Positions 9,095-56,688 of a stretch of 57,727 bases of DNA are shown here, in pieces. The position numbers and the translations under genes are program-made. The first letter of the stretch is position 1. The number at the start of each line of letters is the position of its first letter. Location: positions 1 to 57,727 of IMG/VR virus record IMGVR_UViG_3300045120_000343. One strand, written 5' to 3'. Source of the DNA: a virus. Below the pieces are notes generated by a model. The model did no database searches, had not been told where the DNA came from, and saw only the letters and a list, made by a program, of their open reading frames with translations.

Positions 9095-9104
9095 GGGCAA
9101 TTCC

Positions 9105-10499: not shown

Positions 10500-10526
10500 C
10501 GACCAATCCCCGTTCCCTTACGGTGC

Positions 10527-10856: not shown

Positions 10857-10872
10857 GGGTTTTCCGTACCTA

Positions 10873-10907: not shown

Positions 10908-10908
10908 A

Positions 10909-10937: not shown

Positions 10938-10986
10938 CCAAATCGTCGGGAGGGCGATGGTGCCCAACCAAAACCGGGAGGTTCCA

Positions 10987-11520: not shown

Positions 11521-11525
11521 CGGAC

Positions 11526-11753: not shown

Positions 11754-11763
11754 GAGAATGAAA

Positions 11764-11940
11764 ATGAAACTCTCAGATACCGAATGGAATGCGATCGAAC
11801 GCGCTCTGCGGATAGCGGCCGACCAATACGACAGCGATGCACATGACGCATCGTGCGCCCCTAACCACGAGCGAATTGAACGATGCTTCAAAGATCAGGC
11901 GATGCTTGCCAGGACCATAGCCGACAAGATCATCGTATGA
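11764..11940 (+). CDS. small helical protein of plus-strand module
   Basis: 58 residues from ATG 11764 (MKLSDTEWNAIERALRIAAD). AGGAG lies seven bases before this ATG; the ATG at 11758 is too close to it. It is acidic and helical, with two Cys (DASCAPNHERIERCFKDQ). It ends in an ATGA overlap with the helix-turn-helix gene. No family recognised. Confidence 0.6.
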   Translation: MKLSDTEWNAIERALRIAADQYDSDAHDASCAPNHERIERCFKDQAMLARTIADKIIV

Positions 11941-12122
11941 CCACCGCCCAATACCTCGCCGCACTTCGCAAGCTCGGCCTTCCCCCTTACGGGAAGGCGA
12001 CTTGCGAAGCGCTAGGCTTGCGACCTCGGCAGATCGCGCGGATGGCCAGCGGCGAAAGCGACGTGACGGAGACCGTCGCGCTGCTGCTGCGGATGTATCT
12101 GCGGCATGGCCTCAGCGGGTAG
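11937..12122 (+). CDS. helix-turn-helix protein of plus-strand module
   Basis: 61 residues from ATG 11937, ATGA-coupled to the gene before. The sequence LRKLGLPPYGKATCEALGLR then RQIARMASGESDVTETVALL has the shape of an XRE-like helix-turn-helix: recognition helix around RPRQIARMASGE and a capping helix after it. Similar short proteins occur in rhizobial phages and genomes. As the last gene of a module controlled by TGCC-N5-GGCA sites it is a candidate for the factor that binds them. That link is inference. Confidence 0.6.
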   Translation: MTTAQYLAALRKLGLPPYGKATCEALGLRPRQIARMASGESDVTETVALLLRMYLRHGLSG

Positions 12123-12127
12123 CCGCA

Positions 12128-13795: not shown

Positions 13796-14177
13796 ACCTG
13801 ACCATGTCGCTTGCGGCTTTGTTGGAAGTGCCGACCAATGGGTTCTGAATCGCGTTTCCGTTCGTCGTGCGGATCATCAGGCCGCCGGTGAGCAGATCCT
13901 TCGCGGCCATCTTCGCGAGCGCGCGTTCCGCATAAACCCATCGGCCATATGCCTGGCAATAGGCCGCGAGCGATGCGACGTCGATTTGCGTGAGCAATCC
14001 GAGCCGGTAAAGCTGAACGGACACCCGCGTCCACTCGACGCGCGCCTCGTCGGTGAGAAAATCCAGCGGCTCGGGCAGCGGCGCCGGATCAGGGCGAGGC
14101 TCATTCTGAGGAATCGGCCGCTTTCCTGGGTTGCCCTCGATCAGCTTCAGGTGCGCGGGCTTCATCTTGCGGCCCAT
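13698..14177 (-). CDS. terS: terminase small subunit, P27 family
   Basis: 159 residues from ATG 14177 (MGRKMKPAHLKLIEGNPGKR). The N-terminal basic motif and IEGNPGKRP are the signature of P27-type small subunits. The middle helices (LTDEARVEWTRVSVQLYRLG, IDVASLAAYCQAYGRW) and a central NAIQNPLVGTSNKAASDMVR also match. It recognises phage DNA for packaging. TAATG overlap with the methyltransferase gene upstream; it reads into terL. Confidence 0.88.
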   Translation of the reverse strand: MGRKMKPAHLKLIEGNPGKRPIPQNEPRPDPAPLPEPLDFLTDEARVEWTRVSVQLYRLGLLTQIDVASLAAYCQAYGRWVYAERALAKMAAKDLLTGGLMIRTTNGNAIQNPLVGTSNKAASDMVRYASEFGLTPAARARLAVGPVTEAKSKFAGLIG

Positions 14178-38937: not shown

Positions 38938-39378
38938 CTAAAGAGTGGCCGCCGTCACAAAGAGCGCGTCAATTTGTACGTCGGTCAAATTTAGCTGTGC
39001 GCCGACTGTGGCAATCCAAGCAGCGTCTCGACGCCATTCCGTGGCGTATTCCCAACTGTCTTTGAGATCGAGATCGGTGGATGCGGTCACTGCGGCCGAC
39101 ACCTGATCGAAGAGGCCGGCTGCACGGAGCGCTCGGCGGGCCTGGAGGGCACTCACCGCGCGGAATGGCGGCAATGAGGCCGCCAGAAGGGCGGCCCTCA
39201 GATCGGCGGACGTGGCCACAAGCGGGGTATGCGAGGCGGCCCAGGCGAGATAGGTAGGGTCGTCATCGGCCACATAGGCGACTTCCCTGACGGCATAGGG
39301 ATGGCCGTCAACGAGCCAATAGCGGTTTGCCACCGTGATGATGGCAAACGAAAATACTTTCAGCGCTGCCATGATCAA
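38938..39378 (-). CDS. tail-fibre-associated protein
   Basis: 146 residues from ATG 39378 (ATGA overlap). The last 75 residues, VSALQARRALRAAGLFDQVS then SWEYATEWRRDAAWIATVGA, are a common end domain of phage tail-associated proteins with unknown detail (DUF4376-like pattern). The first half is beta-prone (HPYAVREVAYVADDDPTYLA). It follows the tail tip gene. Confidence 0.5.
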   Translation of the reverse strand: MIMAALKVFSFAIITVANRYWLVDGHPYAVREVAYVADDDPTYLAWAASHTPLVATSADLRAALLAASLPPFRAVSALQARRALRAAGLFDQVSAAVTASTDLDLKDSWEYATEWRRDAAWIATVGAQLNLTDVQIDALFVTAATL

Positions 39379-41969
39379 TTCACGTGAACGCGGGAGTCTT
39401 CAAGGACCGCCGTGATCGAGACTATCTTGGCGCTGCGCGGGACAGCTCCCAAGAAAATCGCCTGACGCGGAACCTGATCAGATTGTCCGACCACGATATG
39501 CAGGGGCTCGGAACGGGTCGCGGTCATGTCGAAAGGTGTCGTATCAGGATAAGTTGGGGCAACGCTCAGCGTAATCATGAGCGCGTCGTCGGCCAGGGCA
39601 TAGCTCGCAATTTGAACGGCCGCTGAGGCGCGGCTGCGGCGATCTCTGAAATAGGCAAACCAAATTCCGCCAGCACTGAAATCTAATCTGCCCCAAAGCG
39701 TAACCGTCTTGGTGCCGGCATCGTAATCGTAAACTCTGGTCGACTGGCCCCAGCGCGGCATGTCGTGATGAACCAAGATCAGATCACCGCGAGAAGCGAT
39801 AAGACCTTCGAGTTCGGTGTCCCAGCTCAAGAGGACGCGCCGATAGCGATCGGCCGCGAGAAGATATTGGCCCTCCCGATCGATTTGATCAGGTTGGACG
39901 ACGCCGTCAAATTGATTAACGGATGGCGTTTGCGGGTCGGTCACGCCCGCCTGTGGGAAGGTCTCGCTGTCGTTGATCCAAGTGACTTCATTAAGAAAGT
40001 CCAGTCGCAGCGAGTCCGTTTCGTCCTCTGGCGATGGCAGGATGAACTGCATCGCGAAACTCCCTTTGATAATGTTCTCCGAAGAGAACAGCATCGTTGG
40101 AATGGTTTGCGGCTGATCGCGATGAAATCTCACTATGCCATATTGGTGATATGGAACGGTGCGACCCGCGCGCAGCGCCAGGCCAAGCGCGGACCACAGG
40201 GTAATATTCTGCGCCGAGTAAAAATCGAAGGTGTCTCCCCGGCTGTCCCAAATAGCGGCCAGGGCCGCCAGGCCGGCCAAGTCGAAATTCACGTCGTCGA
40301 GTTTGCCGCCATAGGTCGTGTTCTTGAGCATGTCGGCGACTGCCCAAGCAATATTGCGCGTGGCCGTCGGCGCAGACCAGGAAACGCCATTCCAAATCGG
40401 CAACAATCTCGTTCCTGTTACAGCGATTTGCCGCGATGAAACGCTGTTGATCGAATTGGTCCGGTCCGCGAACATCGTGACAGCTAGCATGGTACAATCG
40501 CCGTAGCCGCGCGCCGTTTCGAGAAAGCCTCGCAATCCGTCCCAGTGGAGATCATGACCGACCGATCCGGTAAGTATTTTGTCATCCAAGCGTTTGGCTT
40601 TGATCTGCCATCGCGCCGCGAACGGAAGATTTATCCGAAATGAAAATGTCACCGGCCTAGATCGTTCGCCCGTGTAGTTGTAAGTGCCGCCCAGAAAGGT
40701 GCTGTTCGGCTCTGCGGCCGTGACCAAAGGCGAAGCTCCCGAGTCCGCAAGTTCTTGATCTAAGAATTGCCAATCGCTGAGCGGATTGCCGGAGTCATCG
40801 ATCTCCTGACACAGGAATCGCCATTCGATGGTGAGTGAGTCGAGCGCGCCGGTCCCGGTGTTGAGCTCATATAGTCCAGACGGCAAGCTCAGATCAACGC
40901 CGATCTGCTCGATAGTCCGTCCCGGCGGGCATGCGATGAAAGGCCCCTTCACATAAGTGATGCTAGAGAATACCACAAAGGTCCAATTCGTGCCGCTGGT
41001 TAACGGGTCGTTGCCGATATTATTTAGGAGAGCTGCGTAGTATGTCCTGATCCCGCCTTGGTCCCGCCAGACGACGTCGCCGATGAAATAAAAGACGGTG
41101 GCGCTCCATTCGTCAACGCTGAAGCCTCCCAACGCCGGATCGTTAGGGGCTGGGAGTTCAATCCCTAAGACTTGAGTTGAAGTGAAAACTTCCGGTTCAA
41201 AAATATTGACCGCTGTGCCGGGCAAATAAAGTGTGAAGTTCACGTTGTCGAAGGAAAGCGAGTCAGTTTGTCCAATCTCGATCTTTTCAGTCTCAATCTC
41301 GCCCTGACTCAACATGAGGACCTGGTGTAATACCTGGCCGCGATCTATCCATTCCGCCCAAGGCGCCGAGGCGAGATCAGGAACGAATCTTAGCCTGCCG
41401 TAAAGTGCTGGAATCGGATTGCCGAGCCGGGCGACATTATTTTGTGCCGAAAGGCTTCCGGCGTATGTAGGGGGAGCAGCGTCGATACCGCCGCCCGAGC
41501 CACTCGAGGCACTCGAGCCAACCCCAACCAAACCAAGATTGCCTGCTGGCTTCACCGGTATCAAAACGTTCAACAGATAATTGGCGCCGATCACGAGCGC
41601 GGCGGTGGTGACGGCAGTAATGACCCCGCCGATGATGGCTCCGCCGCCAAGCAGACCGGCGATCGGCGCTGCGAGGAACGGAGCCACGACCGCAGCCAAG
41701 ACTAGAATTCCAAGCGTCGCCGCGACTCGTGCCCCGTCGCTTTGGGGCATGACGATAAAGACGACGACGTCGCCGTCCCGCGCGCTGACGCGGTGCCATT
41801 TTGTTTGGCTGATCCAACGACCGTTGTGTGAGCAAACGATCGGCCGACGCTTTGGATCAAGACCGTTGTTGCGTGCGAGCCGGCGGAGCGATATTGACCG
41901 AGGCTCGACGACGGTCGCGCGCTTCGGAAGGCTGGAAGTTATGTTATTCAGGATGTGGACGAAGGCCAT
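39375..41969 (-). CDS. tail tip attachment protein (J-like)
   Basis: 864 residues from ATG 41969 (MAFVHILNNITSSLPKRATV). A Gly/Ala-rich hydrophobic segment (about residues 85-145, ALVIGANYLLNVLIPVKPAG) comes first; then a NVARLGNPIPALYGRLRFVP entry typical of J-like host-specificity proteins (PIPALYGR). Later LSVAPTYPDTTPFDMTATRS and GSVGHDLHWDGLRGFLETAR agree. It forms the tip of the tail near the receptor. A TerL-like start far upstream (42146) overlaps the NlpC gene and was rejected. Confidence 0.8.
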   Translation of the reverse strand: MAFVHILNNITSSLPKRATVVEPRSISLRRLARNNGLDPKRRPIVCSHNGRWISQTKWHRVSARDGDVVVFIVMPQSDGARVAATLGILVLAAVVAPFLAAPIAGLLGGGAIIGGVITAVTTAALVIGANYLLNVLIPVKPAGNLGLVGVGSSASSGSGGGIDAAPPTYAGSLSAQNNVARLGNPIPALYGRLRFVPDLASAPWAEWIDRGQVLHQVLMLSQGEIETEKIEIGQTDSLSFDNVNFTLYLPGTAVNIFEPEVFTSTQVLGIELPAPNDPALGGFSVDEWSATVFYFIGDVVWRDQGGIRTYYAALLNNIGNDPLTSGTNWTFVVFSSITYVKGPFIACPPGRTIEQIGVDLSLPSGLYELNTGTGALDSLTIEWRFLCQEIDDSGNPLSDWQFLDQELADSGASPLVTAAEPNSTFLGGTYNYTGERSRPVTFSFRINLPFAARWQIKAKRLDDKILTGSVGHDLHWDGLRGFLETARGYGDCTMLAVTMFADRTNSINSVSSRQIAVTGTRLLPIWNGVSWSAPTATRNIAWAVADMLKNTTYGGKLDDVNFDLAGLAALAAIWDSRGDTFDFYSAQNITLWSALGLALRAGRTVPYHQYGIVRFHRDQPQTIPTMLFSSENIIKGSFAMQFILPSPEDETDSLRLDFLNEVTWINDSETFPQAGVTDPQTPSVNQFDGVVQPDQIDREGQYLLAADRYRRVLLSWDTELEGLIASRGDLILVHHDMPRWGQSTRVYDYDAGTKTVTLWGRLDFSAGGIWFAYFRDRRSRASAAVQIASYALADDALMITLSVAPTYPDTTPFDMTATRSEPLHIVVGQSDQVPRQAIFLGAVPRSAKIVSITAVLEDSRVHVN

Positions 41970-42385
41970 GGCAACCCGCGTGGACGATAGAAGCCGAGGA
42001 TGTTCAAGCCAAGTGGTCGCAAGGCACCGATCTTTGTGAATATCACGCCGGTCTTCTCGAGCACGTGCAGTGTTCCTCCTCCATCGAGCGACAGATAAAC
42101 GCCGATGTGGTCGGGGAGCCTGCCGCGGCTCATATAGGTTGCGCAACCATCGAATGGCTTGTCGGTCTTTTCCGCCTCACCCGCGTCGACGGCGCGGATG
42201 AAACGGGTGCGCAACGCTTTCGATTCTGTGTGATCAAAGGAAATGTTAGGCAGACCGATTACGCCGAATTGCATTCGCAGGACATAGTCGTAAAGCCCCC
42301 AACAGTCGAAAGCGTCCGGACCTCGGGCGAGTCGCCGATATGGCTTACCGATAAGGCCGATCGCCAAATCATCATGCGTCGTCAT
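41948..42385 (-). CDS. NlpC/P60 tail protein (K-like)
   Basis: 145 residues from ATG 42385 (ATGA overlap). RRLARGPDAFDCWGLYDYVL carries the catalytic Cys28, SRGRLPDHIGVYLSL the His93 and GTLHVLE the third position. The family cuts peptide bonds in peptidoglycan during DNA entry. It sits next to J, as lambda K and I do. It has no signal or span. Confidence 0.8.
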   Translation of the reverse strand: MTTHDDLAIGLIGKPYRRLARGPDAFDCWGLYDYVLRMQFGVIGLPNISFDHTESKALRTRFIRAVDAGEAEKTDKPFDGCATYMSRGRLPDHIGVYLSLDGGGTLHVLEKTGVIFTKIGALRPLGLNILGFYRPRGLPWPSSTS

Positions 42386-42960
42386 ATATATTGCAAAGTC
42401 GGAAATCTTGATGGCGAGTAGGATTGCCAAGGAAACCGACGCGAACCGACAGTCAGCGTTATCAGCCTTCCAGACACCGAAACGCCGGATGCGGAAACTT
42501 CAACCAGATTGAATTTCAACGGCGGATCGTTTTCCGGTCCAGCGCCTTCTGATCCGACGAGATATTCCCGATATGTGATGTAAATCGCCTTGCCTCCTTG
42601 TGCTGCTTGAATGAGAAGATCGATCATTTCTCGCCCGACATTGTCGACTGTGAGCGTCGCCCGTGGCGTCGGGTCGGTTGTGGTGTCAGGAATTGAGATC
42701 GAAAATGGAACGGCTGAGAACATCACAGAGCTGCTTGCTCGACGAGGGGCAGTGCTTTCTAAAACCGCGTCAAGCTCGCGCGAACCGTCATCGTTGATCC
42801 TTGTAGGGTTGGCACCATCAAACAAGAATACGTCCGCGGGAGCGTCAGCGTCGTCTACCAGCCCGTCGAAATAAATCGAGATCGTCGGGATGATCGGGAT
42901 GTCCGGATCAGCCGCAGCGTAGGCTTCCTCGAGTGCGTCGGACAGAGTGATATTAGGCAT
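42382..42960 (-). CDS. DUF1833-family tail protein
   Basis: 192 residues from ATG 42960 (MPNITLSDALEEAYAAADPD). DIPIIPTISIYFDGLVDDAD, then VMFSAVPFSISIPDTTTDPT and AYRATLTVDNVGREMIDLLI-type strands, are the signature of DUF1833 baseplate-hub-associated proteins. Precedes the NlpC and J genes in transcription order, which is the usual arrangement. Start at 42993 adds a basic head of 11 residues that is not needed. Confidence 0.7.
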   Translation of the reverse strand: MPNITLSDALEEAYAAADPDIPIIPTISIYFDGLVDDADAPADVFLFDGANPTRINDDGSRELDAVLESTAPRRASSSVMFSAVPFSISIPDTTTDPTPRATLTVDNVGREMIDLLIQAAQGGKAIYITYREYLVGSEGAGPENDPPLKFNLVEVSASGVSVSGRLITLTVGSRRFPWQSYSPSRFPTLQYI

Positions 42961-42994: not shown

Positions 42995-45316
42995 TCATAT
43001 CGCTACTGTTGCACCATACCCGAGCAGACTAGGCGTGCGCTGTTGTATCGTAGCCCCTGAGTAAGTTGTTCCCGCAGTTCCTGCCAACATTGAATTAGTG
43101 ACACTTTCTCGATGGACTGTAATTGTACCATTACCAGTCTGATAGATATTTGTCCCGGTGACTATATACCAAACTACTCCACTCCCATTGTCCAACCCGA
43201 TCTCAAGGCCGTTAAATAACCAATTCGCATGAGTACCAGCAGCAATAGTAACTAGATGCGTCGCCCCAACATAGGACCAATTTACAGATAGATTCGCATA
43301 GTAAGAAAAACCGTCGCCTGCGCTATCTTTGACGTGGGAGTATGTCTGAGCGCCTGTCTGCTCGACGATGCACATCGAACGTGCGCAAATTGGCATAGCA
43401 GTACCCAGCACGGGTGTTTTGATCGAAGCTACATCGGCCAGAGTTATGCGTTGACATTCTCCTGGTGCTGGCTTGTAGCCAATGAATTTGGTTGTGCCGG
43501 TGCCACTAGAGCGAGGGAAAAAGGTGTGGGCAGGAGTAAACGAACTCGGAGACCAATAACTACGATCCCATTCCCCAAAACCAAATGCTTTACTCCCGAA
43601 AGCATTTTGCGAGGCAGTACTTGGATCATAGCCTGTAGCGCCGAACGTACTGCCAGGGCCGCCCGCCGGAACGGCGGTGCTCTGTCCGACGTAGCGAAGA
43701 TTCGCATTCATAAGGGCCGCAGATCGGTCCACGACTAATTGTATCGTTGTATTGTCGTCGCCGCCGTCATATCCTTCAATAACAATTCTTCCGTTCGAGG
43801 TTATGGATTGCGCCCCCTTCGTATCACGCATAACGAAATTTGTTTCAACCTGCCGAATCCAAGGAAATGCCTGGCAAGCTTGTATCACTGATGTGGTTCC
43901 GGCGCTCGGATTGGCCGGGTTGGCGTTTCGCATACAAAGCTCGTCGACAATCGCTTGGCCCCCGCTCATGTCATCGCTGTCCCCAGGCTGCGCAAATTCC
44001 GTGTCCCAAAGCGCCATGCAACAGGCATTGTTCTCGTAATGACAATGGATCAAATGGCCGGGTCCTTCGAAATAAATGCCCCTCTCGCACGCATACAATG
44101 TTGTAACCGCCTGCAATTGTGTCTGAAAATTTGTTGAGCTAAGCGCTACGTCCTGACCATAGTACGCCCACACCCAGCCTTCCCAGAGCCAATACGTTGC
44201 AACATTGGTGCTGGTGTTGAAGCTGACAAGACGGAGCGGGACAATGCCAAACCCAGGCAACACAACCGTTGCAACATCATAAACGAACCCAGTATCGGGG
44301 CATTGCGTCCAGTACGGCAGATAGTCGGGCACAACCGTGGTTGTGAACCGATAATTGGTGAAGCCCGTGCCCCCCGCAATAAAGTCGGTAAACGAGGTCA
44401 GTGCAGACGTACCAGAGATCGCGACTGCCGCACTGTTCGAGGTTCCAAACCCATGCTCGCCACCGATAACAACGTAATCCTGCCCCTTGCTACTGAACGG
44501 CCGTATTGCCCCGATGTTGCAGTGAAAGACCGAATTGACCAACGATTGACTATTCCCCCATTGAATTCCCAGATAGCAACCGTTGGTCGAGCAGTAGAAC
44601 CATTTGTTCCCCTCTGCCAGAGCTCCACTAAAGTTGTTTGTCCCAGTCTGAAATCCGCAGAAAAAGGCTGTTGCCGAGCAATCTACAAAGGTTGTGCCGA
44701 CAGCCCCGCCGCTGCCGGTCGCAATGGAAAAACCAACACAATTGGACGGCAGCAGCCGAGGGGCAAAGATACCAAGGGACACCGAGTTGTTTGTCAGGTT
44801 AACGCCGGAGACACGCTGTCCAGAGGCATCATTATTACTGCCAGGTCCTACCCACCATGCGGGGGCAGTTTGAAAAGTCACTGTGAAGCGTGTGCGATGA
44901 TCTGCCTCGACCGAGATATTTGGGCCGAAAATTGTCGGCGTTGCAGTCTGCCCGGCAAGTAATTGACCAACCGTCAAAGAACCGCGGAGATTACCCGGTG
45001 GATCTTGAAAGATTGGATTATTGATAGTCCATGCATTACTTGGTCGATATGGTATGCGAACCCGCGAGATGTCGTTGTTGAAGGCAAAGTCTATCGCCGC
45101 CTGGATAGACAGATCGGTGTAGCCGCCAACGCCGAGAAAATCGGTGACGTCGACTATGCCGGGAGTCCCCCCGCTGCCCGGAGGGCCTTGTGGTCCCTGT
45201 GGCCCCACCAGCGCCGAGACCGGCGCCCGCTTGGTAACGCCGCCCTGAACGAGTGGAAAAGGCTCTGTGCCGATCAGCGGGATGGTTGCTGGCGTCAGTT
45301 CGGAAATCTTGGCCAT
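42995..45316 (-). CDS. tailspike, beta-helix with collagen-like neck
   Basis: 773 residues from ATG 45316 (TGATG overlap). Residues 1-37 are a baseplate-attachment head; GPQGPQGPPG (38-47) is a short collagen-like neck that trimerises. VTDFLGVGGYTDLSIQAAID (around 57-76) opens a pectate-lyase-3 type beta helix, followed by many Gly/Asn-rich short strands. It probably binds and cuts a surface polysaccharide. The DNA is more AT-rich than the neighbouring repeat gene, a sign of recent exchange. Confidence 0.75.
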   Translation of the reverse strand: MAKISELTPATIPLIGTEPFPLVQGGVTKRAPVSALVGPQGPQGPPGSGGTPGIVDVTDFLGVGGYTDLSIQAAIDFAFNNDISRVRIPYRPSNAWTINNPIFQDPPGNLRGSLTVGQLLAGQTATPTIFGPNISVEADHRTRFTVTFQTAPAWWVGPGSNNDASGQRVSGVNLTNNSVSLGIFAPRLLPSNCVGFSIATGSGGAVGTTFVDCSATAFFCGFQTGTNNFSGALAEGNKWFYCSTNGCYLGIQWGNSQSLVNSVFHCNIGAIRPFSSKGQDYVVIGGEHGFGTSNSAAVAISGTSALTSFTDFIAGGTGFTNYRFTTTVVPDYLPYWTQCPDTGFVYDVATVVLPGFGIVPLRLVSFNTSTNVATYWLWEGWVWAYYGQDVALSSTNFQTQLQAVTTLYACERGIYFEGPGHLIHCHYENNACCMALWDTEFAQPGDSDDMSGGQAIVDELCMRNANPANPSAGTTSVIQACQAFPWIRQVETNFVMRDTKGAQSITSNGRIVIEGYDGGDDNTTIQLVVDRSAALMNANLRYVGQSTAVPAGGPGSTFGATGYDPSTASQNAFGSKAFGFGEWDRSYWSPSSFTPAHTFFPRSSGTGTTKFIGYKPAPGECQRITLADVASIKTPVLGTAMPICARSMCIVEQTGAQTYSHVKDSAGDGFSYYANLSVNWSYVGATHLVTIAAGTHANWLFNGLEIGLDNGSGVVWYIVTGTNIYQTGNGTITVHRESVTNSMLAGTAGTTYSGATIQQRTPSLLGYGATVAI

Positions 45317-48300
45317 CAGCTATCCAATTCCAGGGGAGTGCCATCTTCCAACAGCAAAAACGCGCCGCCCTCATCGAGTAGAGCAGGCCCCAAAAAATCC
45401 CATGCGTCGAAGAATGGATCCAATGTCAAATCCTCGATCAGGCCGATCATGGCCAAGAGCTCGTCCGGCGTGGCCTCCGCAAAAAGCGCCTCTAGCTCGG
45501 CGAGCTGCGATGGGGTAACGCTGTTGACGTCGCGCGCCTCCAATTCGGCCACGACCTGCCAGCGATTAAAATTGATGGCATTGACAACTGGCGGCGAGGA
45601 GAAGCGGGCCTTTACCGTTCGATATTGCGAACTGTCGATCGGGACATCGATCGAAAAGAAAGCTGCCTCGTTTCTCGCGCGATATTCTAGCCACTCATTG
45701 AAATAGGCTAGTTGCGTATCGTCCCACTGCCAAGAAACAGAGAAGAGGCGAAATGGCGTCAGCGTACCGGCGCGGAAGTTAGCGATACCCTCGTTGCTTG
45801 CCTCAGTGCGATTGCCGGCCGCGGCACGCTTGTTTGAATAATTGTCAACCTGAATCGCATTTTCCAGAACTTCAGCAGGGAAAACGCCATCGTCCAATCC
45901 CGTAAAGTCGCTCCGCGATAGCAAGTTGGCGTCGTTGATTTCGAGCCGTGTCGTCAGACGCCACCGATCGGCAACGGTGGATATCGGAGCCAGTGCTTGT
46001 TCGCCGACAAAACGGGCCAGAACTGTCCTCTTGACGCTTTCGATCGGGATGTCGATGTGGAACCAGATTTCACCGTTCTTAGCGCTATAGTCGTACCATG
46101 CGTTGAAGAACTCGGCTTGATATTGGGTAAAATCGATGACGCCAGAGACGATGCGCAGCGGACTTCGGTTTGTCAGCCGAACTCGGTCAAAGCCCGATTC
46201 CATCGCCGAGCGCACGGCTGCGGCGTCCCGTTTGTTGCTGTAGCCGCTAACCAGAAAATCGGCCTGCAGAAATGGCGGGAATGTCAGGCCAGAGAATACT
46301 GGAGGCGTCGCGGCTCCAAACGGCGGGGCTTTGACGAAACTCAACGCCGGATAAAGGACGAACGAAACTTTCCGCCGCGTCGGCAATGACAACGGCTGAA
46401 ACCATTTGGTGATGAAAGTCGTCTCGGCGAATGGCGCCGCCTTGACGAAACTCAGAAACGGCTGTTCACGCGTTGGCAGCCCGCGTCTGGGCAATACCGG
46501 CTCGCGAAGTGCTGCGAACCATTTGTCGAGAGTTATAAGCTCACCTGCCGGCGTGAACTTCGACCAGATCAGACCATCGGGCTGGACCGCCGTCGGTTTG
46601 CGCCGGGTCGGAATAGAGAGCGGACTGAACCATCGTGCGTCGGTTGCCGTGTCCGTGCCGACGAACGGGAATCGCACATAGAGCTGCGCGCCCTGCTTGC
46701 GGCGGGAGGGCTCGCTTAGGGCCTGTTGCCAGCGGTCAACCGAGACCGCCTCAGCGAATGGCGCGGCCTTGACGAAGGCAAAGAACGGCTGCTCGCCCGT
46801 GGGCAGCAGGCGCAACCGGGTCGGTTCGCGCAGGGCTGCATACCACTTCTCGACCGTGATATCGGGATTGGCCGGGAAATAATAGGCCGCCGGGAACCAG
46901 GGAGGGTATTCGGCGAAGCGGATACGGCGGGTCGGCTCCCCCAATGGTAGCAGCCACTTGTCGATGCTAACCGCTTCGGCGAACGGCGCGGCCTCGACGA
47001 ACGCTAGATAGGGCTGCGCTGCCCCAGAGAGCGCCGCTGGGAAGCGTTTGGGCTCCGACAGGGGTCGGAGCCACCTGTCTATCGAAATGGCTTCAGGGAA
47101 CGGATCAGCCTTGACGAAGGCCAGCACCTGCTGGTCGTAGGCCGGTAGACCGGACCGTGCCCGTACCGGCTCAGCAAGCCAGTTGTAGTATTTATCGACG
47201 GTGACGGTTTCGCCCGCCGTTGGCGTAAGATAGGACCAGCTAAGCGACGGGAAATCCGTCAGCTTCTTGGCGCGCGTCGGTTCGGAAAGCGGAGCAAACC
47301 AGCGCGTGTCGGTCGCGATATCCGAGCCGACAAAGGACAGCTCGTCTTGCGCGCTGGTTGAATATCCACGCCGGCGACTCGGCTCAGAAAGCGGATAGAA
47401 GAACCAGCGCGCAGCATCTGTCGCCACGTCAGAGCCGACGAACGATAATTCGTCTTGTGCTTGGGTTGGATAGCCGCGGCGCCGCACGGGCTCGCTGAGA
47501 GGCTGTTGCCAGCGATCGGCGGAGACGGTCTCCGGGAACGGAGCGGCCTTGACAAAATAGGCATATGGCTGCTCGAAAGTCGTGCCGACTTTCGGGAAGC
47601 GTTTTGGTTCAGAAAGCGGCTGCTGCCATTTGTCGATCGACACCGATTCGGCAAAAGGTGCGGCCTTGACAAATGAGAGATAAGGATTTGAGCCCGGCGC
47701 CAGCCCGCGCCGCCGCACCGGCTCAGCAAGCGCAGAAAACCAACGATTGTCCCTCGCGGCATCCGAGAGCCCGAGCGCCAACGCAGGATGCTCGGACGTC
47801 GGTAAAACACGTGTGCGAACTGGCAAGCCAAGCGGAGCAAACCAGCCCATAGAGGCCGCGATATCGCTGAAAGGCAGAGCGAACTGGCGCAGCGGTGTCA
47901 ACGTATTTACCGGGGGGCCGAAGTCAAATGCCGCCGGAGTGCCAGTCGAATTCGTTGCGTTCTTACTATTGCCGCTTAAATCCGGTTCGGTCGCTACCAA
48001 GCCGTCGACCGGCCACCAATCTACTAAAGATTTAGGTCTAATCCTATTAGGACGAATTCCAGAACAATAAGCTTGTACCTCAAGAGCGGTTAGCGCGACA
48101 CTCCAAATAGCAGCGTCGGCAATCCGACCTGTGGTATCGGAAGTCGGAGTAGCCGATCCTCCATATGTTCCTACCCGAGCATTTGTAAATTGAGTTCCGC
48201 CAAAAACAGCCGAAACCGCGTCTGTGCTCGATAAAAGTGATCCAGAAAATATATATTGTGTTCTGCTTGTTGAAGAAGCGCAAACGAACAGCATAGGGTA

Positions 48301-48588
48301 CCAAGTATTGGCACTCAATGGTCCGAGAGCTGCGGGGTTACGGAAGTTGCCTACACTATCACTAACGAGACATTGAAAATTGTTTGCAGCCGCATCAACT
48401 CCAAATGAAACAGTGTTGGTAAATCCTCCGTAATCCGCATGATCCATTGAAAGTGGATGTGAATTTGATCCAGTAACGCTAGGCAACGATGTAAAATAAA
48501 CCCAACAAGCTATTGTAAATGGGTAATTGGTAAGCGGACCCACAGCCGCTTGATAGGCACCGTTCCCTACTGTGAATAGTCGCGCCAT
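45316..48588 (-). CDS. large repeat-containing tail protein
   Basis: 1090 residues from ATG 48588 (TAATG overlap). Residues 1-230 look like a LamG/ConA-like jelly roll (YPFTIACWVYFTSLP, GRIADAAIWSVALTALEVQA). Then 14 tandem copies of a unit of about 36 residues follow (DNA about 46.31-47.84 kb): W-x3-LSEPxRR...QPxLSFVKAAPFAE-x-VSIDK. After it comes a two-fold duplicated module beginning GYSNKRDAAAVRSAMESGFD and VDNYSNKRAAAGNRTEASNE, each with an ExFNAWYDYxAKN-type core. The C-terminus is acidic. It is probably a long virion fibre. I do not know a function for the repeat. Confidence 0.7.
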   Translation of the reverse strand: MARLFTVGNGAYQAAVGPLTNYPFTIACWVYFTSLPSVTGSNSHPLSMDHADYGGFTNTVSFGVDAAANNFQCLVSDSVGNFRNPAALGPLSANTWYPMLFVCASSTSRTQYIFSGSLLSSTDAVSAVFGGTQFTNARVGTYGGSATPTSDTTGRIADAAIWSVALTALEVQAYCSGIRPNRIRPKSLVDWWPVDGLVATEPDLSGNSKNATNSTGTPAAFDFGPPVNTLTPLRQFALPFSDIAASMGWFAPLGLPVRTRVLPTSEHPALALGLSDAARDNRWFSALAEPVRRRGLAPGSNPYLSFVKAAPFAESVSIDKWQQPLSEPKRFPKVGTTFEQPYAYFVKAAPFPETVSADRWQQPLSEPVRRRGYPTQAQDELSFVGSDVATDAARWFFYPLSEPSRRRGYSTSAQDELSFVGSDIATDTRWFAPLSEPTRAKKLTDFPSLSWSYLTPTAGETVTVDKYYNWLAEPVRARSGLPAYDQQVLAFVKADPFPEAISIDRWLRPLSEPKRFPAALSGAAQPYLAFVEAAPFAEAVSIDKWLLPLGEPTRRIRFAEYPPWFPAAYYFPANPDITVEKWYAALREPTRLRLLPTGEQPFFAFVKAAPFAEAVSVDRWQQALSEPSRRKQGAQLYVRFPFVGTDTATDARWFSPLSIPTRRKPTAVQPDGLIWSKFTPAGELITLDKWFAALREPVLPRRGLPTREQPFLSFVKAAPFAETTFITKWFQPLSLPTRRKVSFVLYPALSFVKAPPFGAATPPVFSGLTFPPFLQADFLVSGYSNKRDAAAVRSAMESGFDRVRLTNRSPLRIVSGVIDFTQYQAEFFNAWYDYSAKNGEIWFHIDIPIESVKRTVLARFVGEQALAPISTVADRWRLTTRLEINDANLLSRSDFTGLDDGVFPAEVLENAIQVDNYSNKRAAAGNRTEASNEGIANFRAGTLTPFRLFSVSWQWDDTQLAYFNEWLEYRARNEAAFFSIDVPIDSSQYRTVKARFSSPPVVNAINFNRWQVVAELEARDVNSVTPSQLAELEALFAEATPDELLAMIGLIEDLTLDPFFDAWDFLGPALLDEGGAFLLLEDGTPLELDS

Positions 48589-49414: not shown

Positions 49415-49672
49415 TCATACATATGAGCGCCGCGCGTGATAGGACGCTTCCTCGGCCTCTATTTTTTTCATGAAATGGAGGCACTCGAAACAGCCTGGTT
49501 TGAGGCAGTGGAATCGCATGCAGTTACGGCAGAAGTCGGCAACCTCTTCGATCTTCTTATTCGCCGGAGTGTGAATGATGCAGCCATTGTGACAGCATTG
49601 ATGTGTATCGCATTCTCCGGTGATCTTGCCGGTCAGCCTATCAGTAAGCGTGGCATAGCCCTGCGACTTCAT
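49415..49672 (-). CDS. Cys-rich zinc-binding-like protein
   Basis: 85 residues from ATG 49672. CDTHQCCHNGCIIHTPANKK then VADFCRNCMRFHCLKPGCFE and CLHF: ten Cys, in CxxC-like and CxxxC groups, a pattern of small phage proteins that bind zinc. Function unknown. Confidence 0.6.
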   Translation of the reverse strand: MKSQGYATLTDRLTGKITGECDTHQCCHNGCIIHTPANKKIEEVADFCRNCMRFHCLKPGCFECLHFMKKIEAEEASYHARRSYV

Positions 49673-49705: not shown

Positions 49706-50053
49706 ATGTCAGAAGAGCGCCTTGCCGAAATCCCGCCTGCCGATCCGACCGAAGAGGCCACCACGACAGAAGAGGCGTTGGCATTAATTCGCCAGCAGGC
49801 GATGGCCCTGATCGCTAAGGTCGATCCGATATTGCTCGATCAGATTCACGCCGTGATCAAGGGAACGCCCGCGGTCGTAGGAACCGCGACCATCGCCGCA
49901 GTGCTTGCCGACATTCTCTGCTTTGTCTCCAAGACCGAGGATGGCCTGGGCAAGAACGTGCTGCTCGCCTCAGAAGCGATCCTGCGGATGGCAACGGCAG
50001 GACTGAAGAACCGGCCGGCGCGAACTCCAGCCGGCCAGTTGATCGCTCATTGA
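49706..50053 (+). CDS. lone plus-strand gene in tail operon
   Basis: 115 residues from ATG 49706 with GGAGG ahead. MSEERLAEIPPADPTEEATT then EEALALIRQQAMALIAKVDP, ending basic (NRPARTPAGQLIAH). Mostly helical, with a span-like VVGTATIAAVLADILCFVSK (about residues 57-76). It is the only clear plus-strand gene in the tail region and is flanked by genes on the other strand, so it must use its own promoter. Possible moron. No family recognised. Confidence 0.6.
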   Translation: MSEERLAEIPPADPTEEATTTEEALALIRQQAMALIAKVDPILLDQIHAVIKGTPAVVGTATIAAVLADILCFVSKTEDGLGKNVLLASEAILRMATAGLKNRPARTPAGQLIAH

Positions 50054-50523
50054 GCCGACTGTGGTTCCGGAGGCATGACGGGAGCAGCCTGACCGTAAGC
50101 CGGGTGAACGGCACCGCCTGCATTGTTAATCGCCGTCAATCCATCCATCCACGCCGGCTTGGCGTTATCCACCAGGGGACCGACCTTGATGTTGTTCGCG
50201 GCGGCATAGTCGCGCAGAAATTTGGTGACGAAACCGTATTCGGCTCCGCCCGTCCGCGCATTGTTGATCATATCCATCAACAACTTCTCGGGATCGCTGT
50301 TGTCCTGACATTTCTTCCAGTTGTCATATGCCCACAGCGCCTCGCGGTTTAGATCGCGCACCAATTGAACGACTTCATCAGGTTGTCCTTTGGCCTCTAG
50401 ATAAACGGCGAGATCGTTTGCATACAAACTCGGGAACGGCGCAACCGTTGCAATCGCCTCATCAGGGATTTCGAGGCCCACATGGGCGAGACGCCACTTT
50501 TTGATCTGATTCGGATCGATCAT
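50047..50523 (-). CDS. hypothetical tail-region protein
   Basis: 158 residues from ATG 50523 (ATGA overlap). MIDPNQIKKWRLAHVGLEIP then LEAKGQPDEVVQLVRDLNRE, helical in style, with a Pro-rich end (QAAPVMPPEPQSAQ). It may be a fibre chaperone or adapter. Function unknown. Confidence 0.5.
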   Translation of the reverse strand: MIDPNQIKKWRLAHVGLEIPDEAIATVAPFPSLYANDLAVYLEAKGQPDEVVQLVRDLNREALWAYDNWKKCQDNSDPEKLLMDMINNARTGGAEYGFVTKFLRDYAAANNIKVGPLVDNAKPAWMDGLTAINNAGGAVHPAYGQAAPVMPPEPQSAQ

Positions 50524-50996
50524 GTCTGCTCCACGTCGAACATAAGATGAATGCGCGGCGTTTCCCCGTCGTTGGTCACGGAATGCTCGACCAGCACGTT
50601 GACCATATAGGCTTGGCCAACGCGCATAACATGCCCGCTGCCAGCGACTACGAATGAGGATTCGTCATTGCTCGTGAGCGGACAATGGACGCGACAGAGC
50701 CAAGCATCGGATTGCTGATCCATGTGCGGTTCGATGCGATGCCCCGGCATTACCGCAGAGAGCATCCTAGAGTGTGCGCGGGCGCTCGGAAATAATTCCA
50801 TCAGAGCGGCAACTATACCATCAGACATGGCACCGAAGCGATGCCAGGCCAGATCGGTGACCATCGCCGGCTTGAGTTCGCTGCGGCTCTGCTGCGGCCA
50901 CGCCTCGAACCTGATCGTCTCAATCCAGGCGACCAGGTCGAGAACGTGCACGCAGGCGAGAAATTCGACGGAGCCGCGAAAGCGACGGTCACTCAA
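50520..50996 (-). CDS. Asp/Asn beta-hydroxylase-like 2OG-Fe(II) protein
   Basis: 158 residues if it starts with TTG 50996 just before the upstream stop (a GTG at 50951 is possible; no strong ribosome site). The core GHRIEPHMDQQSDAWLCRVH carries the iron-binding HxD (91-93), then CPLTSNDESSFVVAGSGHVM and VEHSVTNDGETPRIHLMFDV supplies the distal His138 and Arg148. This is the Asp_Arg_Hydrox pattern of aspartyl/asparaginyl beta-hydroxylases. In a tail operon it may hydroxylate a virion or host protein. The substrate is unknown. Confidence 0.7.
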   Translation of the reverse strand: MSDRRFRGSVEFLACVHVLDLVAWIETIRFEAWPQQSRSELKPAMVTDLAWHRFGAMSDGIVAALMELFPSARAHSRMLSAVMPGHRIEPHMDQQSDAWLCRVHCPLTSNDESSFVVAGSGHVMRVGQAYMVNVLVEHSVTNDGETPRIHLMFDVEQT

Positions 50997-51459
50997 AAAG
51001 GTGAACGATGCAGACCGTCGTGCCGGTGTATGCCGGACTCTTTGCGCGCCCGCCAAGACCGGTGACGGTGACCGCGGGAACGATCAATTCACCGCCCGGC
51101 GCGGCGACCCAGCGATAGGTCGCACGCTGGTTAGTGGCAATTTCCAGGAGCTGCGTCGCAGCGGTGACGGTCGGCTCGATCGTGGTAACGACGCCAGCGG
51201 TAATCAGCGCCGCCGCATCGCCGGCATCCACGGGTGCCGGGACCGCCGTGGTGCGCGTTCCGGTCGAGGTCTGCCGATCGACCTTGTAGGTCACCGTGTT
51301 ATCCGCAGGGGTGCCATCGGTTCCGAACGTGAAATCATAGAGCCACGCACGCCGCAAGGTCGTGGCGCCGGTCACAGCGGTGAGATCCCACTGCGTCTTA
51401 TATGTCGTGGTCAGCGCACTCGGGGTGCCCTGAGTATTGGATAGCGAGTATTTTGCCAT
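50989..51459 (-). CDS. virion structural protein
   Basis: 156 residues from ATG 51459 (MAKYSLSNTQGTPSALTTTY). Thr/Ala/Val-rich beta strands: LRRAWLYDFTFGTDGTPADN, TAVPAPVDAGDAAALITAGV. The start and composition resemble small phage structural proteins. Next to the tailspike. No exact family. Confidence 0.5.
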   Translation of the reverse strand: MAKYSLSNTQGTPSALTTTYKTQWDLTAVTGATTLRRAWLYDFTFGTDGTPADNTVTYKVDRQTSTGTRTTAVPAPVDAGDAAALITAGVVTTIEPTVTAATQLLEIATNQRATYRWVAAPGGELIVPAVTVTGLGGRAKSPAYTGTTVCIVHLFE

Positions 51460-51558: not shown

Positions 51559-53427
51559 TCAGAAAGCGTTCATGATGTAGTCGATGTTGATTTGCATCAT
51601 GCCAGCAGTTAGAGCCTGGACGCTGACGGTCAGCGTAATCTGCTGCTCGGTGCCATTGTAGAAGAAATCGCCCGGTACTATGCCATTTATAATCAAATCG
51701 GGCGAGGTGATTGGTCCAGCGGTGATAACTGTTGCTGCTAGGAACGCAGCCGGAGTGCCCGTCACCCCTAACGCGATTTTGGCGGTATTGCTACTACTAG
51801 CAAAGGTTACCGATGGGGACGTGAAGACCCGGGTTACGATAGCACCCTTCGGAAGAGTGACGCCAAGATTCTTTGTTCCTACAGACCCGCCGTCAGTCGG
51901 AACATTGTAAGATGTGCAGATTCGACCGCCATCAAATTTAACTCTCAGACCTCGAATGCTCCCCGCGCCGAGGGTCAATTTAGTGAAATCGACGCCTTGT
52001 ATGTTGCTGAGAGATAAGTCGACGCAGTTTTTGGTAAGCGGTGCTTTGGACGACATATTACGCGCGGCGAAATTTGCAATCGTAATCCTGGTGACACCAT
52101 CTATATCCCACGGAATTGGAGATGGTGCTGAACCGCCGTCAAAATCCACTCCATCGATCACCCAATCTGCAGCGGTCGATACGGCCCCGTCGAAAGCATT
52201 AACGCAATTTTTGATTGTGCCGTTCGTAAATTTGACAGCGGACCCGAGCGGAATCTGGAAGGCCGAGAACGCCGTATCGATGAAATAGTTATTGATCGAT
52301 ATGCCGCTAATCGTTCCCTGAAAGAACATTGCCTCTTCGGCGTTCGTCGTGCCCTTGAATTTGTAGCCAGAGAGCGAGCAATGCGTACAGTCTCGCCAGA
52401 TGATACCGACATTGGCGCCTTGTGAGTTTTCGCTGTAAATATCGGACACCTGCAAATCAGTTTGCGTAAAAAATCCGAAATCACAGTTGAAGTTGCCATT
52501 ATGCGCGGTGCACTTGGAGACTTTATTGCCTTTTCCGGTGTCGATGGAATAGCCGAAATTGCTTGTGCACCCGCCGCAATCCACGTCGCATTCGGTCAGC
52601 GTGTTGTAGCCATCAGATGACGACGGCGATACCAGGGATATGCCTGCCGTGCCGCCGCCCGCCAGAGTTTGCGCCGTGACCGAGAGGGCAACCCTAATGC
52701 CGCGAATGACCGAGCGGCTTGCTTTGACCGCAAGGCCATAGGCATTACCCTGCCCCGAGAATGGCACGCTGGTGTTGGAAGCGTTGTCTGAATAAAAGTT
52801 TCCCACCGTGCAACGGTTCAGTATCGCGACGAATGCCGTTTGCGTGTGATGAAAGACCCGCAAGTCGCGAAATACGCAGTCGTTGAAAGTCGTGGGAGCG
52901 GCTCCATTGAGAGTCCCGATCGCCATCCCATCCACGTTCGAGAAATAGAGGTCGTCAAATACCGAGTCCGCGACGATCGAGGTGCTGTCTGCGCCGACGA
53001 AAATGCTATGTATAAGGTTATGCGGTGCACCGGCTTGATTGGCAAAATTGCCGTCCAGCAAGAGGCGGCTAAATGTTACACGCGATGTGGTCGCCCCCGT
53101 GGGCCACACAAACATGCTGCCACTAGCGTTAGCTTTCAATCTGAACGTAGTGTTCCCGTCCCCCAGCACCCGTAAATTGGAGAGCAGCGGCACCGAGTCG
53201 ACCGCATAGATACCGCCGCCCGTAACCCATAATGGGATTTTTTCCGAGGCGGCATAGGCGAACGCAGCAGTGACGGCGGCGGTATCGTTCGCCGCGCCAT
53301 CTCCCACGACGCCGAACTGTTGCAGGTTGAGAGCGTTGAGAGGCCGCTTGCGCCACCGGCTGCCGTCAAATTTCCAGGTGCGATAGAGATCACCTGACGA
53401 TGGCGCTATCGGGAAATCCAAAGCCAT
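51559..53427 (-). CDS. tailspike, pectate-lyase-like beta helix
   Basis: 622 residues from ATG 53427. Residues 1-35 are an attachment head; then LQQFGVVGDGAANDTAAVTA (about 35-54) is the classic start of a Pectate_lyase_3 beta helix (D-G-x-x-x-D-x-A). Many short Asn/Gly strands follow (NVDGMAIGTLNGAAPTTFND). A compact C-terminal domain (KGAIVTRVFTSPSVTFASSS) may trimerise it. It likely binds or degrades a polysaccharide receptor. It is the second spike of this type. Confidence 0.8.
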   Translation of the reverse strand: MALDFPIAPSSGDLYRTWKFDGSRWRKRPLNALNLQQFGVVGDGAANDTAAVTAAFAYAASEKIPLWVTGGGIYAVDSVPLLSNLRVLGDGNTTFRLKANASGSMFVWPTGATTSRVTFSRLLLDGNFANQAGAPHNLIHSIFVGADSTSIVADSVFDDLYFSNVDGMAIGTLNGAAPTTFNDCVFRDLRVFHHTQTAFVAILNRCTVGNFYSDNASNTSVPFSGQGNAYGLAVKASRSVIRGIRVALSVTAQTLAGGGTAGISLVSPSSSDGYNTLTECDVDCGGCTSNFGYSIDTGKGNKVSKCTAHNGNFNCDFGFFTQTDLQVSDIYSENSQGANVGIIWRDCTHCSLSGYKFKGTTNAEEAMFFQGTISGISINNYFIDTAFSAFQIPLGSAVKFTNGTIKNCVNAFDGAVSTAADWVIDGVDFDGGSAPSPIPWDIDGVTRITIANFAARNMSSKAPLTKNCVDLSLSNIQGVDFTKLTLGAGSIRGLRVKFDGGRICTSYNVPTDGGSVGTKNLGVTLPKGAIVTRVFTSPSVTFASSSNTAKIALGVTGTPAAFLAATVITAGPITSPDLIINGIVPGDFFYNGTEQQITLTVSVQALTAGMMQINIDYIMNAF

Positions 53428-53924: not shown

Positions 53925-56021
53925 CTATCCCGAAAACCGCGGTCGCAATCCGTAGCGATTCGTCAGCGCCGAGTTCAAAGCGCCGCGACCGTCGGAAACT
54001 TTACTTGCGATCTGTGCTTCGGCTTGCTCGACGATGAAAATGAGATCGACGCCTCCGGATTGGTTCTTCTTCTGGTCTACTGAGACCTGGGCAGAGCTGT
54101 TGTTCTGGACGTTAACATTGACCTCGACGGCGGAGCGGCCGCCTATTGCCGCCATCTGCCCTGGCGTCAACACCGACTCGTCGCGTGTCAGGATGGCCGG
54201 AACCTCGTTCGCCATAAGGCCAGCATGAAAGCGCGGGGCATCATCAAAATAAGCCGGATGGATATAGCGCGTCGTTCCTTCCGATCCAACGATGCCACCT
54301 GAATGGAATCCCGTACCAGCAAAATATGAACCTGATGCCGGGGATGCTGGCCCCAATCCTGCACCACCGGGCAGAAAACCGCCAATCGCCGACTGCAACG
54401 CTCGCGCAATCGGGATCGTGATCGTCATCTTGATGATCATTTCCTCCAGCGAGCGAATAACTGCCGTGCTCAGATCCTTGAAGGCGTCGCTGGCATTCTT
54501 CGCGCCCGTCGTGATGTCTGCAAGGCTAGACGTCAGACTGCTAGATGCCGAGTTCACGAATTCATCGGCCGCGCTGCGCGTCTGCCTCAGTTGATCGTTC
54601 ACGCGGAGTTGCGCGGCGTACGTCGAGTTCAATGCCGCGGGTACGTCGTTCCCGTATAACCCTTTTAGCTGTTGCGCGATCTGGACATCTTCCGGCGAGA
54701 GCAGCGCGGTCTTTCGGCCGAAGTCTATGTCGCTGGCGATCTTAGCGCGCTCGAGCGCCGCCGCCGCAGCCGCCGCGCGCTCCGCAACTTTCGCAATTTT
54801 GTCGGCGTAATCTTCGAGCTTGCCGCCGTTCTTAACGATGTCCTGTTGCGCCGCTTCCTGGAGGCGAAACTCGGTACGGAGCCTCGCCACCGCCTCGGCG
54901 CCTTTGCCTTCAGTTTGTGCATCGGCCTCTGTCGCTGCGATGTGGCGCTGGATCGATGCTGTCAGGCGGTCAAACTCATCAGCGGCCGTTTTGGTATCAA
55001 GCTCCTTGGGCTTCTCACCGACTGCAGTAAAACGCCCTGTAAACGCGCCGCCTAACCCCGCTGCTAGTGTTTGCCGTGCCCTAGTAAGCGCATCGATCTG
55101 CGGCGGTTCAGGTCTGTAAGATAATCCCGGCTGGCTGGCTGCCGATCCAGGCCCAGCAGACAGCGAGTTTGTGATCAGCGTGGGCAAAAGGAAAGCCGGA
55201 CTGTAAGCCAATATCTTCCCAATCGTCTCCCATGGTATCTTGTTCAAAGGCTCGACGGCTTTCGCGATTATTTCGGCGATGCTCACCCACACCGCCTGAA
55301 ATTTCAATGCAAGGTTCGTTAGATCTAATTGAACCTTGAAAAATTCGTTGATCGTGTTTTTTGCTGCGTCGAGCCGTTTCCCCAACTCGATCGCATTTTG
55401 AACTTGAGTCGATGAAATCGTTTCGGTCTGGAATTTGGTCAATTCCTTCAGTTTGTCTTCAAAGCCGCTCGGCTCAAATAATGCTCGTTGCCCGGCGATG
55501 CTGTATTTCTCTAGGAGGTCGGCCCCTAATTTTAGCACATAATTCAGCGCCTCAAACGCTGCAACCGCAGCTCCTATCGGCAAGGCAATGCGCGAGAAGA
55601 ATGCCAACGCGGGAGCTGAGAACGCGACGACGCGACCGATAACGGTCGCGATCACGCCGAGCTGCGTGCCGAGCAATCCAAGACCTTGCATAATCTCGGC
55701 GTTCACGAAGGATCGAAAGGCGGGAAACAAGGCGTAGGCGCCCAACGCGATGAGCTTCAGATGATTGATGTGGTTAAGAAGATCGCTGGCATGATCGGCG
55801 ATGCTTTTGCCGAAGGCTTGCGATCCGGCTGTAGCTTGCGCCACCGAGTTTTGGTAGGTTTGCTGTTGCCGCGTGACGTTCTGATATGCTTGCTGCTGCG
55901 CATTAAGCGACGTCGTGATCGCGCCGCTTACTTTGTTGTTGTCGTTAACGACCTGATCCACCCCCTCCGTGGAGTAGACGTAGCGCAGCCGTTTTACGGC
56001 GTCCTGCATCGTCGCGGCCAT
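53925..56021 (-). CDS. tail tape measure protein
   Basis: 698 residues from ATG 56021 (MAATMQDAVKRLRYVYSTEG). Long helical stretches, hydrophobic segments (LGLLGTQLGVIATVIGRVVA, FSAPALAFFSRIALPIGAAV), then coiled coils (ATEADAQTEGKGAEAVARLR) and a LAVESLEEMIIKMTITIPIA-type region before a GFHSGGIVGSEGTTRYIHPA motif typical of tape measure C-termini. At about 0.15 nm per residue the tail would be around 105 nm. Follows the chaperones as expected. Confidence 0.85.
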   Translation of the reverse strand: MAATMQDAVKRLRYVYSTEGVDQVVNDNNKVSGAITTSLNAQQQAYQNVTRQQQTYQNSVAQATAGSQAFGKSIADHASDLLNHINHLKLIALGAYALFPAFRSFVNAEIMQGLGLLGTQLGVIATVIGRVVAFSAPALAFFSRIALPIGAAVAAFEALNYVLKLGADLLEKYSIAGQRALFEPSGFEDKLKELTKFQTETISSTQVQNAIELGKRLDAAKNTINEFFKVQLDLTNLALKFQAVWVSIAEIIAKAVEPLNKIPWETIGKILAYSPAFLLPTLITNSLSAGPGSAASQPGLSYRPEPPQIDALTRARQTLAAGLGGAFTGRFTAVGEKPKELDTKTAADEFDRLTASIQRHIAATEADAQTEGKGAEAVARLRTEFRLQEAAQQDIVKNGGKLEDYADKIAKVAERAAAAAAALERAKIASDIDFGRKTALLSPEDVQIAQQLKGLYGNDVPAALNSTYAAQLRVNDQLRQTRSAADEFVNSASSSLTSSLADITTGAKNASDAFKDLSTAVIRSLEEMIIKMTITIPIARALQSAIGGFLPGGAGLGPASPASGSYFAGTGFHSGGIVGSEGTTRYIHPAYFDDAPRFHAGLMANEVPAILTRDESVLTPGQMAAIGGRSAVEVNVNVQNNSSAQVSVDQKKNQSGGVDLIFIVEQAEAQIASKVSDGRGALNSALTNRYGLRPRFSG

Positions 56022-56028
56022 AATCGTC

Positions 56029-56688
56029 TCAACTTCTGTACTTAACGATGATCGCCGGCGAGGCGACAGAGGCTCCGGCGGCACGAGCGCGTCTACGCCC
56101 AACGCTGCGCCTCAGCGTATATCCGCCGAGCAATTCCATATATCCGAACTGGACATCGGCGATGTTGCCAAAGCGCGCGGCAGCGTCCTTGGCTGTGCGC
56201 TCGTAAATCCGGTTCGGCACTTCGATGACGAATGCCCGGCCGGCTTCGGTCTTTCCGATTTCGATCTTGCGGGCGTAGGGGACGCTATTTGCGAAAACAA
56301 ATTCGTCCGCCTTGGGCGCGACGCCGCCGAGTTGAATTTCGCGACCGTCTGCGAGCAGCTTATGGCCGCGCTTGTAGGCTCCAGAAAGGACCGGCGATCG
56401 GTCGGCGAGTGTGCTGGCAATCCATTTCAGCACGTCGGTGATAAGATCAAATTCAAAAACTACCTCGCCGCGGAGCAGATTGACCGTCTCCAAGGGCGCG
56501 TTCGGCCGACCGTCCACCGTGACCGTGTAAGGGGGCACGTGCCCAAATATCGCTTGATCGGCCGCCTTTGCTTCCTCCAGTCCATCGCGAGTGAACTGTG
56601 CCGCGGCCTGCTGTTCCGCCTGGATAATGGCCAAAGCATCGGCTTGCGTCATCGGTTCAATCGGATCAGCCTTGATCTCTAGCCCCAT
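56029..56688 (-). CDS. tail protein before tape measure
   Basis: 219 residues from ATG 56688 (MGLEIKADPIEPMTQADALA). The stretch LKWIASTLADRSPVLSGAYK then EFVFANSVPYARKIEIGKTE and ERTAKDAAARFGNIADVQFG resembles HK97 gp10-like tail proteins. The start overlaps the GT frame by 23 bases. Possible minor tail or neck protein. The longer open frame from 56772 has a basic head and was rejected. Confidence 0.5.
   Translation of the reverse strand: MGLEIKADPIEPMTQADALAIIQAEQQAAAQFTRDGLEEAKAADQAIFGHVPPYTVTVDGRPNAPLETVNLLRGEVVFEFDLITDVLKWIASTLADRSPVLSGAYKRGHKLLADGREIQLGGVAPKADEFVFANSVPYARKIEIGKTEAGRAFVIEVPNRIYERTAKDAAARFGNIADVQFGYMELLGGYTLRRSVGRRRARAAGASVASPAIIVKYRS

Follow-up and report, generated by a model that had tools for sequence, protein, structure and literature searches.

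The distal tail protein gp17 of phage Sf11 forms a hexameric ring with an adaptor/extension that docks six tailspikes, and part of it is a large appendage to which no function has been assigned (PMC12724387). Adsorption to sugar-coated hosts is aided by carbohydrate-binding modules inserted in distal tail proteins (PMC10688798; review: PMC7291167), and binding extensions on distal tail proteins are already known. Here, the window, a 57,727-base virus record from IMG/VR, encodes a protein, P0001, in which a LamG head and a long repeat array precede two predicted ring modules. The features of P0001 are as follows.

45316..48588, minus strand: P0001, a predicted 1090-aa chimeric distal tail protein with a LamG head, a repeat arm, two ring modules and an acidic tail
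48073..48564, minus strand: LamG / concanavalin-A-like domain, aa 9-172 (PF13385, E 1.5e-11, exceeding the Pfam cut-off)
46279..47850, minus strand: 14 W-PLSEP-R repeats, aa 247-770 (anchor spacing, shuffle test, alignment, selection test)
45904..46278, minus strand: predicted distal-tail ring module 1, aa 771-895 (phrog_384 at aa 763-904, E 4.3e-24; duplication)
45469..45903, minus strand: predicted distal-tail ring module 2, aa 896-1040 (AlphaFold2 model with pLDDT 77.5; PDB matches 9occ_C and 8iyk_E)
45319..45468, minus strand: acidic C-terminal tail, aa 1041-1090 (composition)

The initial annotation had described an open reading frame of this length with a LamG-like head and an acidic tail. 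All three descriptions hold: the frame runs for 1090 residues from its ATG, the head exceeds the family threshold, and the last 50 residues contain 26% Asp+Glu with neither Lys nor Arg.

Predicted C-terminal ring modules and the tail-gene context

The proposed two-fold duplication of the C-terminal part is borne out by 34% identity between the modules over 128 residues (E 9e-20). The phrog_384 family, to which PHROGs assigns module 1 and its flanks, is a virion structural family, and a one-module relative is found in 60 IMG/VR loci. The AlphaFold2 model of module 2, modelled alone, has a pTM of 0.65 and matches Sf11 gp17 (9occ_C) with a Z of 11.9 and a Foldseek E of 2.4e-5. It also matches the 109-residue lambda tail-tip chain 8iyk_E (Z 9.9) and the tail-tip proteins of DT57C (Z 8.3) and T5 (7qg9_V, Z 8.2); the Z values for 9occ_C and 8iyk_E are well above unrelated rows. 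The modelled module has the ring-domain (tail-tube-type) fold of distal tail proteins (Dit/DTP, gpM-type). The gene also has the position of a distal tail gene, with the tape measure gene upstream and the DUF1833, NlpC and J genes downstream, although a spike candidate and a gene cassette intervene.

53925..56102, minus strand: tape measure protein, encoded upstream of P0001 (Tape_meas_lam_C, E 1.5e-4, narrowly missing the Pfam cut-off; resembles the tape measure protein of Achromobacter phage JWX)
42382..42993, minus strand: DUF1833 minor tail protein (PF08875, E 2.5e-18; 85% identical in L138, the closest tail relative of the window)
41948..42430, minus strand: NlpC/P60 tail-tip protein (PF00877, E 9.1e-6)
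39375..42146, minus strand: J-like central tail fibre / hub (phrog_469, E 2.6e-88)

Two other genes lie in this region. A 773-aa protein with a collagen-like start, GPQGPQGPPGSG, is encoded between the arm gene and the DUF1833 gene (42995-45316, minus strand); it matches no Pfam or PHROGs family, and L138 has no gene at that place. A 622-aa pectate-lyase-like tail spike candidate (51559-53427, minus strand; phrog_2234, E 6.8e-6) is encoded just upstream of the cassette gene c2.

On the basis of phrog_384, gene position and predicted fold, the duplicated C-terminal module is identified as two tandem distal-tail-protein (gpM/Dit-type) ring domains, and P0001 is therefore probably a subunit of the tail-tip ring from whose N-terminal side a long arm extends. 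Given the fold matches to Sf11 gp17 and lambda and the published role of gp17, the chain is best read as a distal tail protein whose N-terminus is extended into an arm. With two modules per chain, the ring could be built from three chains. The earlier reading of P0001 as a fibre survives in so far as a tail protein does carry a LamG head on a repeated arm, but not as a free-standing fibre, because its C-terminal module resembles a tail-tip ring anchor.

The repeat array and its family

The repeat consensus begins DKWFQPLSEPVRFKPGLPAALQQFLAFV. The 14 tandem copies claimed for the array prove to be exactly 14, degenerate and 33-39 residues long, with L-x-x-P anchors spaced by 34, 38, 39, 36, 34, 37, 39, 39, 37, 38, 33, 37 and 39 residues; the repeats proper end near aa 765. 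Self-identity peaks at lags of 39 residues (17.6%) and 185 residues, or five units (17.3%), compared with 13.4% for the best of 200 shuffles. When the copies are aligned, L and P of the core are invariant and W and R nearly so. Only about half of the copies contain the motif QPxLSFVKAAPFAE, which had been taken as a strand that generally follows the core, and the structural model predicts no strand at this motif. Tandem Repeats Finder detects no tandem repeat in the DNA of the array. Pooled over the repeats, pS is 0.72 and pN is 0.48, while repeats 4 and 5, which are 82% identical in amino acids, give a pS of 0.82 and a pN of 0.19. Because no repeat persists at the DNA level and synonymous sites are nearly saturated with differences whereas amino-acid change is restrained, the copies are old and constrained, as the initial annotation had suggested.

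An iterated profile built from the 14 copies detects 391 repeat copies in 57 ORFs of the collected loci, a set that includes some duplicates and one or two chance matches. The W-PLSEP repeat occurs in 1-18 copies per protein in about 50 genes of uncultivated phages, whose IMG/VR loci were located by DNA patterns. Relatives surfaced only when the repeats and the C-terminus were queried apart; the whole protein had no tblastn match in GenBank phages, and a search of IMG/VR by peptide pattern was likewise empty. No copy of the repeat turns up among 50,697 GenBank phages (best E 0.4), and in 84,980 prokaryotic genomes it is all but missing: the 17 matches there are about the number expected by chance according to our own estimate. 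The sole real repeat protein among these 17 lies on a 4.8-kb contig (L063) of a Patescibacteria MAG, possibly a misbinned phage. Two candidates, L039 and L073, were rejected as repeat proteins; both are one and the same unrelated Bradyrhizobium-type protein, which matches by chance.

The profile searches suggested at the outset place the array of P0001, and those of the other repeat proteins scanned, in no Pfam or PHROGs family. The repeat unit finds nothing convincing among PDB sequences, an AlphaFold2 model of four repeats finds no similar fold in BFVD, and literature text searches on the repeat motif and on repeat shafts matched no paper. Within the libraries searched (Pfam, PHROGs and PDB), W-PLSEP is thus a previously undescribed repeat family. 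The domains joined to the repeats in other proteins are LamG, Gly_rich_2 and regions without an assigned family. In other phages, W-PLSEP repeats are carried by separate proteins that lack ring modules: phrog_384 is found in 0 of 30 repeat-bearing records, in a search whose controls were silent. Therefore, the role of the array need not be tied to the ring.

A linked cassette, arm exchange and the role of the array

The array of the window is accompanied by a cassette of small genes on the same strand.

50989..51459, minus strand: c2, a 156-aa beta-rich cassette protein with the NQRASYRWVAAPG motif (31 of the 40 repeat-bearing records have a homologue upstream of their repeat gene)
50520..51056, minus strand: Asp/Asn beta-hydroxylase-like (2OG-dioxygenase) gene inside the cassette (PF05118, E 6.8e-14)
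50047..50523, minus strand: 158-aa cassette protein (47% identity in the L002 record)
49415..49672, minus strand: c5, an 85-aa Cys-rich, zinc-finger-like cassette protein (homologues in repeat loci and c2 loci)

The c2 profile is found in 25 of the 27 repeat-bearing records of at least 20 kb. In every record where the distance can be measured (30 of 30), c2 and the array share a strand and c2 is 0.28-6.1 kb upstream, with a median of 1.8 kb. A reverse search detects at least 75 further c2 loci, 29 of which, among those listed, have at least 3.5 kb downstream. All 29 contain c5, whose Cys residues are invariant in the alignment; a W-PLSEP array is present in 14, and in 22 a repeat-array protein of any kind lies within 8 kb. 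Upstream of the listed c2 loci, only 3 of 258 ORFs of at least 150 aa bear repeats, a control that is counted per ORF rather than per locus and so shows the direction of the effect, not its size. Several listed c2 loci without a profile match have divergent DKW-type repeats by eye. PDB sequences show nothing convincing for c2.

Other proteins near c2 are also repetitive or conserved. In L152, a 3127-aa protein downstream of c2 and c5 (4555-13938 in c2 orientation) consists of repeats of about 20 residues unrelated to W-PLSEP. In L212, a 600-aa protein (3948-5750 in c2 orientation) starts with a DKWYQP-type motif and continues with 22-residue GSFxLTGQ repeats, so that two repeat types occur in one chain. 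A conserved protein of about 290-390 aa, cluster c8, adjoins c2 in L046, L026, L007 and others and carries LKIALIGTAPSSRMLAPF...IDMASRDEYILQRPG; it has no convincing family match and is possibly an enzyme.

Comparison of the window with the 64-kb record of L002 matches c2 (72%), the hydroxylase-like protein (53%), the 158-aa protein, c5 (54%) and the array (39%), and nothing further besides antisense echoes of those five. The hydroxylase-like gene is common only to these two records, and its product might modify the array or c2. In the 29-kb record of L004, only c2 (66%), c5 (35%) and the array (35%) match. The record of L003 has three further weakly similar genes in common with the window. 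Because the cassette is all that matches the window in two unrelated phages, sequence comparison indicates that c2, c5 and the array pass together between otherwise unrelated uncultured phages.

The arm itself is exchanged between close relatives. In L138, a 10.7-kb fragment, J is 69% and NlpC 67.5% identical to the window proteins, and the C-terminal 300 residues of the P0001 counterpart are 75% identical. This homology starts at P0001 aa 765, where the W-PLSEP array ends; residues 1-651 of the counterpart are an unrelated array of AxFAGSGSLSA units of about 20 residues, which replaces the W-PLSEP arm. In the 3.7 kb upstream of the L138 counterpart, both c2 and c5 are missing, although c2 may lie farther upstream, outside this fragment. 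The 20-residue repeats of L138 are not recognised in the c2 loci, which gives no ground for relating the arrays of similar period there to them.

We favour, with a probability of roughly 0.55, a model in which P0001 is an enlarged siphophage distal tail protein, anchored in the tail-tip ring, whose arm serves adsorption and can be exchanged. In the virion, the two C-terminal modules would assemble into the tail-tip ring between the end of the tape measure and tube and the DUF1833-NlpC-J hub. The 14 repeats would form an extended stalk that holds LamG away from the ring, and LamG, a domain of glycan-binding type, would by analogy make the first contact with a sugar of the host surface. The arm would have arrived with the c2-c5 cassette and been joined to a resident ring protein at TFPPF-QADF. 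Replacement of the arm by an unrelated array in L138 fits repeats that act as a spacer only, whereas the tight linkage of array and c2 fits repeats that dock c2; both roles may hold together.

A possible, though clearly less probable, explanation is that each W-PLSEP-R motif binds one c2 (or c5) subunit, so that the repeat number sets how many decoration copies are displayed and the ring modules are one of several anchors. The invariable order of c2 and array, the presence of c5 at every c2 locus with room downstream and the joint movement of all three are consistent with such docking, and this strict linkage lends indirect support to the earlier idea of multi-site binding. A conserved W/P/R core, variable linkers and the lack of a predicted globular fold are also what a motif array is expected to look like. 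However, about half of the c2 loci with room downstream lack a detectable W-PLSEP array and others bear different arrays, indicating that the motif is not obligatory for c2. More tentative still is a broader scheme of a mobile virion decoration system, in which the motif ladder would recruit c2, its length would set valency, and it would be grafted on varied virion anchors and swapped with unrelated arrays in the same slot; here, modification of the array or its partners may fall to the Asp/Asn-hydroxylase-like enzyme.

The initial annotation had favoured a long shaft or rod, and a classical homotrimeric fibre shaft that folds only as a trimer appears unlikely. A repeated unit under purifying selection and an arm length that differs between phages would suit it. 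Monomer predictions of trimeric fibres are often poor, and the AlphaFold2 monomer model of four repeats is of low confidence (pLDDT 64, pTM 0.17). However, this model has short helical turns without strands or a rod fold and gives no backing to a rigid rod or a trimeric shaft; the spacing is irregular; and the predicted anchor is closer to hexameric-ring subunits than to the bases of trimeric fibres. That P0001 is a non-virion protein, such as a surface or secreted factor, is very improbable given its ring modules, its place in the tail operon and its co-linearity with JWX.

Comparison with known distal tail proteins

Nothing in the libraries searched describes the N-terminal placement of the arm, this repeat family, the cassette of c2 and c5 or the swap of the arm. 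Between close relatives, one probable tail-ring protein has had its whole arm exchanged for unrelated repeats, and c2, c5 and a repeat array form a linked cassette that appears to move between unrelated phages. Because the repeat family and its partners are almost unrepresented in cultured phages, an adsorption or decoration module that is common in environmental phages may have gone unnoticed.

Sf11 gp17 (PDB 9occ), the best structural match of the C-terminal module, combines a ring domain with a large appendage, as P0001 does. However, gp17 has one N-terminal ring domain and a C-terminal appendage, whereas P0001 has two predicted C-terminal ring domains and an N-terminal LamG/repeat arm. The predicted fold of module 2 also links P0001 to lambda gpM and T5 pb9 through the lambda tail-tip chain and the T5 tail-tip core, but these proteins have a single ring domain and no arm. 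Achromobacter phage JWX gp22, a phrog_384 protein to which tblastn and alignment connect the C-terminal module of P0001, is about 25% identical and likewise has two tandem modules. Its gene immediately follows that for the tape measure and precedes those for DUF1833, NlpC/P60 and J, a set of tail genes that also surrounds P0001 in the window; unlike P0001, gp22 has neither LamG nor a repeat arm.

The evolved Dit proteins of lactic-acid-bacteria phages likewise carry a carbohydrate-binding-type domain on a distal tail protein (PMC7291167, PMC10688798), a feature that P0001 shares through its predicted LamG domain. In evolved Dit, however, the binding modules are inserted in loops of a peripheral C-terminal galectin domain. 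The extension of P0001 precedes the ring modules, and Pfam detects no galectin-type domain in the protein. The N-terminal position of the arm, as against the C-terminal position of known carbohydrate-binding extensions in Dit, speaks against the adsorption-arm model and sets P0001, with its LamG on a 14-repeat arm, apart from these proteins.
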